Shown here: piece by piece, positions 4,613-6,702 of the stretch
Layout of the letters: every line of letters starts with the position of its first letter
How positions within the stretch are numbered: the first letter of the stretch is position 1
The notes under the pieces: model-generated
Databases searched by the model: none
What the model saw: the letters and a program-made list of their open reading frames with translations, nothing else
What the model was told of the DNA's origin: nothing
Origin: a virus
IMG/VR virus record: IMGVR_UViG_3300010354_004498
Coordinates: 1 to 22,635 of that record
Strand: one strand, 5' to 3'
Length of the DNA: 22,635 bases
Translations under genes and position numbers: made by a program

Positions 4613-6280
4613 ATGCCTTTACAGATTAGAAGAGGTTCAACAGCGCAACGTTTAACGATTACACCGTTGCCGGGTGAATTAGTATACGATACAACAACAG
4701 GTCAACTTTACGTAGGTAACGGTTCAACTGTTGGCGGAACAACAACCACAGGAATTAGCTTAGAAGATGCTAGAGATGCTGCTGCTGGTCTTTTGACTTC
4801 TGGTGTTCACAGCGGTATTACCTTTACCTATAATGATGCACTAGATCGTATCGATGCAACGGTTACTATCGGCGGTACTGGCCCGTTTGACGGTGACATT
4901 AGCGGTAGTGTTTTTGCCGATAATTCAACCCTACTTGTTGACGGAACTGGTGCAAGCATTGTTGGACCGCTAGCATCTACTGGATCCACACATACAATTA
5001 CTCATAGTGTTGCTGCTGATGCCACAGGTTTAACAATTACCGGTACTGATCTTTCTTACACACAAATAACGTCAAGATTAAAGGTAGTATTAAACGGCAC
5101 AAGTTCTTCAACTGACCATGGCGTATCTATAGATAGCTTTAGTAATGGTGCTGTTGGACCTAGAATTGCTCTTTACAAATCCAGAGGTACTCAGGCTTCT
5201 CCTGAAGTAGCTGTTCAAACAAATGATTCACTTGGTGATATTTGGTTCTTAGGCAGTGACGGGACACAAACCGCCACAGGACTTCGATTTGGCGGTCAAG
5301 TAACAGGTACTCCTACCGCATTCGCTATTCCAGCTAAATTTAGATGGCAGAGTAATATAAGTGGATCATTCACCACAAAGATGGAATTAAGTGATGTTGG
5401 CACACTAAGTGTAAATTCAATTCAAAACTTCAGTGGTACAGATTTAACATTAACTGCAACTAACCTGCAAATAAACGGCACTACAATTCTAAACAATCGT
5501 GCAGAATTAAGATTTGAAGACACTGACGGAAGTAATTATGTTTCACTACGTTCTCCTGCGGTAGTTGCTAGTAACTTAACATTTAACTTACCAAGCACAG
5601 GTGGCAACAATTTGGATGTGTTATACACAGATGGCGCAGGTAATTTAATACTTGGGTCACTGTCTAATGTATTCCCCGGAAAAGTTGGTGCACAGATTGC
5701 TATTGGAACGAACGCTGGTCAAACTAGTCAAGGTACTAACGGTATAGCACTAGGATATCAAGCTGGTCAAACCAGTCAAGGTAACTATGCTATTGCCATT
5801 GGGTATAACGCTGGACTAACATCGCAGCATAACAACAGCGTGATTATCAACGGTGGATCAGCTACATTAAATTCTACAGGCAGCGGAACTTATATTAATC
5901 CTGTTCGTCTTACAGCACCAACTGGTAACTTATTGTACTATAATACAACAACAAAAGAAATCATTTACAGTACGGCATTGTTGATATCAACGGTGCAGGC
6001 TACTTTGGTTGCTGCAAGTACAATCACAGGTGACCTGTATGGGTCTGTGTTTGGAGCAGATAGCACAATGATGGTTGATCAAACAGGGTCAAATCTTAAT
6101 GGAAGAGCCATCACAGCTACCAATCATTTCCAATTACCAGTCTATGCGGACGACACAGCCCGACTAACAGCAATACCAACACCGTCTAAAGGCATGATGA
6201 TTATGATGGAGGCTGGATCTAGTCCAGCTGCCACAAATAATGTTCAGGTGTTTGATGGTTCGTCTTGGGTAAACTTATAA
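4613..6280 (+). CDS. tail fibre-like structural protein
   Basis: This 555-residue protein begins with QIRRGSTAQR...PGELVYDTTTGQLYVGNG (about 4-37), an N-terminal module I know from phage fibres and structural proteins. The middle is rich in T, S, G and N and in short beta-type segments. At about 360-415 there are three 16-residue repeats with AIGxxAG and ALGYQAG, like the YadA-type beta-roll of trimeric adhesins. A motif GD-x-x-GSVF-x-x-x-ST-x-x-VD occurs twice (near 94-110 and 473-489). The last ~55 residues (ADDTARLTAI...VFDGSSWVNL) look like a phage fibre tail domain. It probably forms a trimeric fibre for host contact. It has a good ribosome site, a late-like promoter and its own terminator. 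Confidence 0.8.
   Translation: MPLQIRRGSTAQRLTITPLPGELVYDTTTGQLYVGNGSTVGGTTTTGISLEDARDAAAGLLTSGVHSGITFTYNDALDRIDATVTIGGTGPFDGDISGSVFADNSTLLVDGTGASIVGPLASTGSTHTITHSVAADATGLTITGTDLSYTQITSRLKVVLNGTSSSTDHGVSIDSFSNGAVGPRIALYKSRGTQASPEVAVQTNDSLGDIWFLGSDGTQTATGLRFGGQVTGTPTAFAIPAKFRWQSNISGSFTTKMELSDVGTLSVNSIQNFSGTDLTLTATNLQINGTTILNNRAELRFEDTDGSNYVSLRSPAVVASNLTFNLPSTGGNNLDVLYTDGAGNLILGSLSNVFPGKVGAQIAIGTNAGQTSQGTNGIALGYQAGQTSQGNYAIAIGYNAGLTSQHNNSVIINGGSATLNSTGSGTYINPVRLTAPTGNLLYYNTTTKEIIYSTALLISTVQATLVAASTITGDLYGSVFGADSTMMVDQTGSNLNGRAITATNHFQLPVYADDTARLTAIPTPSKGMMIMMEAGSSPAATNNVQVFDGSSWVNL
5714..5829 (+). repeat. three 48-bp repeats in the fibre gene
   Basis: GCTGGTCAAACTAGTCAAGG starts at 5714, recurs at 5762 with one change, and recurs in a diverged form (GCTGGACTAACATCGCAG) at 5810. 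The 48-base period equals 16 codons and encodes the YadA-like AG(Q/L)TSQ repeats. Confidence 0.85.
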
Positions 6281-6300
6281 TATACATATTGAATAGATTA

Positions 6301-6323
6301 AACGCCCTTTATGGGCGTTTTTT
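6301..6323 (+). terminator. Rho-independent terminator after fibre gene
   Basis: AACGCCC (6301-6307) pairs with GGGCGTT (6313-6319) around TTTAT, followed by T to 6323. The -35 box of the next promoter begins two bases later. Confidence 0.88.
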
Positions 6324-6324
6324 C

Positions 6325-6352
6325 TTGACTATGTATTAATCTCATATATAAT
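6325..6352 (+). promoter_or_regulatory. sigma70-type promoter for the tRNA-like RNA
   Basis: TTGACT (6325-6330), a 16-base spacer and TATAAT (6347-6352). The start expected about seven bases downstream (6359-6360) coincides with the first base of the acceptor stem of the tRNA-like RNA. Confidence 0.82.
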
Positions 6353-6359
6353 AGTACTT

Positions 6360-6469
6360 GTGGTCGTGAGTGGAATTGGCAGACCTGCCGCCTCTCCGTA
6401 AGGAAGGCTGGTGATGGGGCAAAGCTGTAAGCGAGGCCTTTGTAGGTTCGAAACCTACCGACCACACCA
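6360..6469 (+). tRNA. unusual 110-nt tRNA-like RNA, anticodon unresolved
   Basis: The ends are clearly those of a tRNA: acceptor GTGGTCG (6360-6366) pairs perfectly with CGACCAC (6459-6465), discriminator A and CCA follow, and the T arm GTAGG-TTCGAAA-CCTAC (6442-6458) is perfect. GGAATTGGCAGAC (6372-6384) resembles a tRNA-Leu D loop. The middle does not fold normally. The best hairpin has loop CTCCGTA (6394-6400) on stem CCT/AGG, extended by GCC/GGC across a bulge; read literally this gives anticodon CCG. Alternatively GCCTC (6390-6394) pairs with GAGGC (6433-6437), enclosing 38 bases as if the anticodon loop held an insert. At 110 nt it exceeds usual class II tRNAs (about 85-95). It could be an odd tRNA-Leu/Ser/Arg, an interrupted tRNA or a tRNA mimic. 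Confidence 0.6.
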
Positions 6470-6507
6470 GCTTAACACATAAGTATTACACAACAAAGGA
6501 ATAATAT

Positions 6508-6702
6508 ATGGATAATACAGTTGAACAATTGAAAAGAGCATTTGAACTATTTCTTGCAGAGGATGCAAAGTTTAGTGGTGGCAATGGTGCCGCCGGAACT
6601 CGCGCTCGCAAGGCCCTTCAGGATGTTGCCAAACTAGTTAAGGCACGCAGGACTGAAATTACGGCAGAAAAGAATGCAAGAAAAGAAGCCAAATCAGTTT
6701 GA
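6508..6702 (+). CDS. histone H1-like (Hc1-type) DNA-binding protein
   Basis: This 64-residue basic protein has an N-terminal helix (VEQLKRAFELFLAEDAKF) followed by GAAGTRARKALQDVAKLVKARRTEI (about 28-51), which matches the core of bacterial histone H1-like Hc1 proteins, and a lysine/arginine-rich tail. Such proteins bind DNA non-specifically; small versions are encoded by several large marine phages. The likely role is DNA compaction or nucleoid effects, by inference. AAAGGA precedes the ATG. It follows the tRNA-like RNA and probably shares its promoter. The next gene starts inside its 3' end (29-base overlap). Confidence 0.8.
   Translation: MDNTVEQLKRAFELFLAEDAKFSGGNGAAGTRARKALQDVAKLVKARRTEITAEKNARKEAKSV

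Follow-up and report, generated by a model that had tools for sequence, protein, structure and literature searches.

What is made from positions 6360 to 6469 of the plus strand of the viral DNA analyzed here (IMG/VR record IMGVR_UViG_3300010354_004498; the window, 22,635 nt in all), where a promoter leads into the outer parts of a tRNA and the middle forms no standard anticodon arm? The original prediction offered several readings, among them an interrupted tRNA with a short intron and a tRNA mimic. The facts it reported and the mimic option have held up against relatives of the locus in other phages; the interrupted tRNA has not.

Some unpaired bases omitted, the 110-nt RNA reads GTGGTCG-TG-AGTGGAATTGGCAGACCT-GCC...GGT-GAT-GGGGC...GCCTT-T-GTAGG-TTCGAAA-CCTAC-CGACCAC-A-CCA. 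The 5′ strand of its acceptor stem (GTGGTCG, 6360-6366) pairs perfectly over 7 bp with CGACCAC (6459-6465), and the D arm TGAGTGGAATTGGCAGACCT (6367-6386; stem 6369-6370/6385-6386) has a tRNA-Leu-like loop with U8, A14A15, G18G19, and A20a. The arm that replaces the anticodon arm, here called P3 (6387-6412), is closed at its base by GCC (6387-6389) with GGT (6410-6412) and capped in this copy by GCCT-C-TCC-GTAA-GGA-AGGC (6390-6408). A long variable arm follows (6416-6440), in which GGGGC (6416-6420) pairs with GCCTT (6436-6440), two basal G-U pairs included, and an inner helix GCT/AGC encloses a GTA loop (6424-6432). U48 of the A15-U48 pair (6441), the T arm GTAGG-TTCGAAA-CCTAC (6442-6458, with a 5-bp stem), the discriminator A73 (6466), and an encoded CCA (6467-6469) complete the molecule. 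The fold has a z-score of −2.18, with 3 of 200 shuffles equally good. Upstream, on the same strand, lie a sigma-70-type promoter (6325-6352), with TTGACT (6325-6330), a 16-nt spacer, and TATAAT (6347-6352), and, recognized by reading the sequence only, an intrinsic-terminator-like hairpin with a T run (AAACGCCC TTTAT GGGCGTTTTTT, 6300-6323) that closes the preceding tail-fiber gene (4613-6280, with an Mtd_N domain). With 7 nt between the −10 box and G6360, transcription would start at G6360 or T6359. Rereading these positions thus confirmed the perfect acceptor stem, T arm, and CCA, the Leu-like D loop, and the −10 box placing the start at the acceptor stem, all of which had been noted originally.

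Standard callers pass the locus by. ARAGORN called five other tRNAs in the window and not 6360-6469, and Rfam did not call this segment at the gathering score and gave no tRNA match there even at an E value of ≤10. Among 10 loci of the family described below, the gathering score of the Rfam tRNA model RF00005 (29 bits) was reached by one member only (L251, 29.8 bits). Short members, such as L209, L251, and L128, are labeled by ARAGORN as tRNA-Pro, tRNA-Arg, Ser, Gln, or undetermined, a choice taken from the P3 cap; a family lacking an anticodon accounts for these wrong Arg, Pro, Ser, and Gln labels.

An exact 21-base pattern spanning the T arm and acceptor strand (GGTTCGAAACCTACCGACCAC) occurred in 47 IMG/VR stretches, all carrying the same RNA with the same 5′ half, so that the window RNA is more than a product of chance. 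With further patterns, some built on the D arm and others on the T arm, the family grew to at least 219 full-length IMG/VR phage loci and at least 149 distinct sequences of 94 to 121 nt, totals that are lower bounds. The search for covarying homologues that the original prediction had proposed was in this way rewarded, and the window RNA is a member of an RNA family so far unrecognized; from one sequence, neither this spread nor the retained leucine identity set could have been seen. A covariance model, R1, scored it at 103.1 bits (E = 6.4e-29 in the window), the window RNA being itself 1 of the 51 sequences in the model; family members scored 59 to 110 bits, and ordinary tRNAs remained under about 53. 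Judged by sequence, many freshwater phages carry such an RNA, with the parts for leucine loading and without an anticodon.

Outside this material no family member was found. A scan of the genomes of 84,980 prokaryote species gave no exact match, and a second scan of the same 84,980 species gave three matches on Bacteroidota contigs, which were without the RNA structure and were judged to be chance. When the window RNA and two of its relatives were compared by BLASTN with 50,697 phage records, the matches were T-arm fragments at best, and no family member appeared. No match at family-level scores was present when Melnitz, DC31, P26059A, and ten cultured jumbo phages were scanned as whole genomes; the R1 matches inspected there were ordinary tRNAs, an uncalled 79-nt sequence in DC31, an ARAGORN-labeled tRNA-Pyl, and a second Leu-like RNA, to which we return below. 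The DC31 sequence (Limnohabitans phage, L358:1501-1579) is tRNA-like, scores 29.7 bits with R1, and is not called by ARAGORN. No earlier description of a phage RNA of this kind was found in the open-access literature.

The secondary structure was evaluated with 51 representatives of <87% identity. Across the acceptor, D (2 bp), P3-base, variable-arm, and T helices, 98.8% of cells were paired (93 to 100% for the individual helices), with two-sided changes in 16 of 22 pairs and 130 compensatory cells; the covariation score was 0.393 versus 0.168 for shuffled alignments, none of 500 reaching 0.393, and fell to ≤0.10 when the structure was slid. Pairing in the acceptor stem reached 99.7%, with two-sided changes in six of seven pairs, and its variants (GTGGTCG, GCGATCG, GCGACCG, GTAGACG, GCAGTCG, and ACGGTCG) each occur with the matching partner. 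The T stem was paired in 100% of cells and the variable arm in 99.2%, with two-sided changes in four of the five variable-arm pairs; the basal helix of P3 was paired in 92.8%, and all three of its pairs showed such changes. The two D-stem pairs are invariant, the stem being short, so covariation lends that stem no support. Stems of 7/5 bp were presupposed when members were extracted, and this arrangement fits with covariation; the 8/4 or 9/3 arms that mark allo-tRNAs were not found. The variable arm is longer than that of tRNA-Leu, with its basal G-U pairs and inner helix; this conserved arm probably binds a partner.

Above its basal helix, P3 is free to change. Its caps include CTGC-TTA-GGCAG, CCC-TTCG-GGGG, GTAA, GAAA, GNRA, and T5 loops, a 7-nt CYCATAG loop, and forms of >30 nt, and the shortest arms consist of a short stem and a 3-nt loop. 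The place of the anticodon arm is thus held by a hairpin of any size with any loop, and there is no conserved anticodon; an arm with a 7-nt loop and a Leu anticodon is absent as a family feature. The observation that no standard anticodon arm forms therefore extends from the window to the family, and so freely do the size and loop of the middle arm vary that these RNAs are not ordinary class II tRNAs with a clear anticodon.

The remainder of the molecule is strongly constrained. U8, A14A15, G18G19, U48, TTCRA, G53-C61, and A73 are present in 149 of 149 members, A20a and the U8/A14 and A15/U48 combinations are likewise invariant, and the 3′ end reads ACCA in 141 of 149 (ACCG, ACAA, ATAG, or ATTA in others). 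Because the search patterns themselves forced part of this conservation, the set was split by the arm used for selection. Members selected by a D-arm pattern only kept U48, A73, and TTCRA in 61 of 61 cases, at least four of the five bases of TTCGA having been demanded at extraction, and in those selected by the T arm only, all 75 had the D side conserved. As an internal control, the ordinary tRNA-Leu genes in the fetched DNA had A73 and U48 in 34 of 34 cases each, and the tRNA-Ser genes had mostly G73 and C48. The ordinary tRNAs that scored highest with R1, in these phages, in Melnitz, and in cultured jumbo phages, were tRNA-Leu.

In Escherichia coli, leucyl-tRNA synthetase (LeuRS) recognizes A73, A15-U48, G18G19, A20a, and contacts between the D and T loops; the enzyme does not depend critically on the anticodon or the variable arm and still charges variants that lack both arms, and the anticodon arm matters for editing (PMC9976931). 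The family has A73, A15-U48, G18G19, and A20a, together with the 7-bp acceptor stem, the 5-bp T arm, and the elbow nucleotides, so that, on comparison of sequences, its invariant positions match this published set, which was measured in E. coli and from which the phage hosts may differ. In one subtype, AGC-AAATTGGCAAA-GCT, the D loop departs from the Leu consensus, though not at the identity positions. The invariant identity set, the R1 scores of tRNA-Leu, and the lack of an anticodon point to a tRNA-Leu derivative that has kept what LeuRS needs and shed what the ribosome needs. We consider it fairly probable that the window RNA is a paralogue of phage tRNA-Leu that has lost its anticodon and is now a free-standing noncoding RNA.

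Its transcription appears to be its own. In 137 of 149 members, exactly 6 nt separate a TATAAT-like box from nucleotide 1 (the gap in the window is 7 nt); TTG stands at −35 in most members, and TATAAT at −12 is found family-wide, in 60 of 61 members of the D-arm-selected set. ARAGORN made 236 distinct calls in this material; a box at −12 precedes 19 of them, and 15 of the 19 are, counted by eye, mislabeled family members, which leaves about 4 of 221 ordinary tRNAs. The predicted +1 of the promoter falls at or within 1 to 2 nt of nucleotide 1, so RNase P would have little or nothing to remove. Each RNA-positive record scanned held one full-scoring copy, which in large records sits tens of kilobases from most tRNA hits; a divergent member within a tRNA cluster (L373:1501-1612) retains a TTGACA/TATAAT promoter of its own, with a 6-nt gap to nucleotide 1. 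Nine nucleotides past the CCA of the window RNA, the motif ATAAGTA (6479-6485, plus strand), which resembles a T4-type late promoter, may serve the next gene; it occurs in the window at 736, 6479, 13636, and 15478, on the plus strand only, and a form ending in GTA or GGA lies within 32 nt downstream of the RNA in 95 of 217 loci. As the next gene often has its own ATAAGTA, the RNA would be read as a separate early transcript.

The neighborhood is conserved in part. A divergent radical SAM gene of ~325 aa, mostly 28 to 65 nt from the RNA, is the first gene upstream in 146 cases; its product is highly conserved (GRFCNYNCSYCWPYARSDK; L143 and L247, for example), and more radical SAM paralogues stand behind it in many loci. 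In the window, a tail-fiber gene takes this position. The gene that follows the window RNA directly (6508-6702) encodes a small Hc1-like (histone H1-like) protein. The four largest contigs encode a T4-type major capsid protein, and the capsid gene of the 353-kb contig is nearest those of jumbo phages such as Phosso, XaC1, PA5oct, and 121Q (65 to 68% DNA identity). Four RNA-positive records (L377 to L380) contain a permuted tmRNA of the betaproteobacterial type, with differing ARAGORN tag peptides, which suggests betaproteobacterial hosts. A Leu/Phe-tRNA-protein transferase was absent from 14 RNA-positive records, which thus showed no N-end-rule user of the phage's own; a host enzyme could act instead.

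Other explanations must be weighed against these observations. The interrupted tRNA of the original prediction would form its anticodon stem from GCCTC and GAGGC and lose the middle ~38 bases, and the window alone can take this fold. Among the 51 relatives, however, the five pairs form in only 29, 44, 14, 10, and 14; the helix that would close the insert is thus not conserved, and the reading falls with it. GAGGC, besides, is part of the covarying variable arm, and the bacterial tRNA introns so far known are group I introns, which are far longer. We find an intron here scarcely credible. That the RNA is an odd decoding tRNA with its anticodon in the P3 loop is highly improbable: a subgroup does have a 5-bp stem and the 7-nt CYCATAG loop, resembling an anticodon loop, and ARAGORN does label short members Arg, Pro, Ser, or Gln, but P3 changes freely in size and loop (UUCG, GNRA, and 3-nt loops included), the labels conflict within the family and derive from the cap, and the basal helix and an internal loop separate the D stem from the 7-nt loop.

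The RNA might instead be a decoy of tmRNA and SmpB, a small tRNA-like domain that carries no message, as tmRNA is the known RNA that is charged, has an elbow, and lacks an anticodon, and a two-piece tmRNA lies in roughly the same region of the related phage Melnitz (PMC9004378). Yet RNA-positive phages have their own permuted beta-type tmRNA, the closest relative of the family is tRNA-Leu rather than tmRNA, and G3-U70 is missing in 145 of 149 members (where 3-70 is G-C or A-U), so that alanylation is not expected; such a decoy seems very unlikely. Two further readings concern the neighbors. In the window, the next gene begins 38 nt past the CCA with no terminator seen between, and a paired 5′ end would withstand decay, as expected of a cis-acting leader that caps the downstream mRNA or serves as its LeuRS-binding operator; but the RNA stays constant while the downstream genes differ between subgroups, many of these have their own late-promoter-like motif, and a cap would not require a conserved CCA and A73. 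We regard a leader as unlikely. Quite unlikely, too, is a partner RNA of the radical SAM enzyme, acting as an amino acid carrier in a biosynthetic pathway. The divergent gene is near the RNA in most loci, and among the 80 closest relatives of the enzyme an automatic search found 55 adjoining the RNA, with more recognized by eye; however, large contigs of 353, 199, and 146 kb have the RNA and lack the gene, which makes the enzyme a neighbor and not an obligate partner, the tail-fiber gene takes its place in the window, and some relatives of the enzyme are located elsewhere.

For the anticodon-less tRNA-Leu paralogue, we propose that host RNA polymerase would make the RNA early, that host enzymes would trim the end or add CCA, and that host LeuRS would load it with leucine, since the LeuRS identity elements are kept. 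EF-Tu may bind the charged RNA, which would be unable to decode. The prediction is thus of a charged, nondecoding RNA made early in infection, and if charging is real, phages would have a new way to use the host translation apparatus. As to purpose, our tentative first choice is a decoy or sink for enzymes of the acceptor end, possibly LeuRS, EF-Tu, or defense enzymes that act on class II tRNAs by modification or cleavage, a role close to the decoy for host tRNA enzymes that the original prediction had also offered; as second choice, there is a small chance that the RNA is a dedicated leucine donor. More generally, and with some doubt, these RNAs might be natural anticodon-free leucyl-tRNAs, charged by host LeuRS, that deliver or withhold leucine outside decoding and dock a dedicated partner through the variable arm, forming a class of nonribosomal aminoacyl-RNA.

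Several known systems resemble the family. With the class II tRNA-Leu of bacteria and phages it shares the 7/5 stems, D loop, A15-U48, G18G19, A20a, A73, and CCA; it differs in having no anticodon, a variable hairpin for the anticodon arm, a longer variable arm with an inner helix, a promoter that starts at nucleotide 1, and, in most large records, a place outside the tRNA cluster. Charged RNAs without an anticodon are rare, and tmRNA is the standard example. Like tmRNA, the window family lacks an anticodon and retains the upper half of a tRNA; unlike it, the family is about 110 nt long, has no message or tag, almost never has G3-U70, and bears Leu rather than Ala identity. Allo-tRNAs, metagenomic tRNA-Sec-like class II RNAs of which some are unusable for translation in E. 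coli (PMC7609411), have 8/4 or 9/3 arms, Ser or Ala identity, and anticodons, whereas the family has 7/5 arms, Leu identity, and no anticodon.

The second Leu-like RNA of cultured jumbo phages likewise lacks an anticodon. R1 flags it as an RNA of ~112 nt, uncalled by ARAGORN, in CBB (L402:1501-1613), pEa_SNUABM_47 (L396:1501-1612), and Kaldavass (L404:1501-1612), and BLASTN picked up all or part of it in 16 records from phages of Erwinia, Pectobacterium, Serratia, and Xanthomonas; it is annotated as tRNA-Val in CBB and elsewhere is unannotated or overlaps tRNA-Arg and tRNA-Cys labels. The RNAs of CBB, BF, SNUABM_47, Kaldavass, and XbC2 share with the window family the Leu D loop, A73, a hairpin for the anticodon arm, its tip short and capped (GTC-TGACAATAGC-GAAA-GCGACGATAG-GAC in CBB), and a variable arm with a 5′ bulge, but, where inspected, they lie inside the tRNA cluster and have no promoter starting at nucleotide 1. 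Their R1 scores of 41 to 43 bits are no better than those of ordinary tRNA-Leu, which leaves common descent unproven; these cultured phages nevertheless offer a laboratory system. A further parallel is man-made: a minimal E. coli tRNA-Leu without anticodon and variable arms, charged by LeuRS (Larkin et al. 2002, as described in PMC9976931). The window family retains a third arm, capped, together with the long variable arm, and in it nature appears to repeat the laboratory result, tRNA-Leu charging without the anticodon arm, in many phages and as a separate, promoter-bearing gene.
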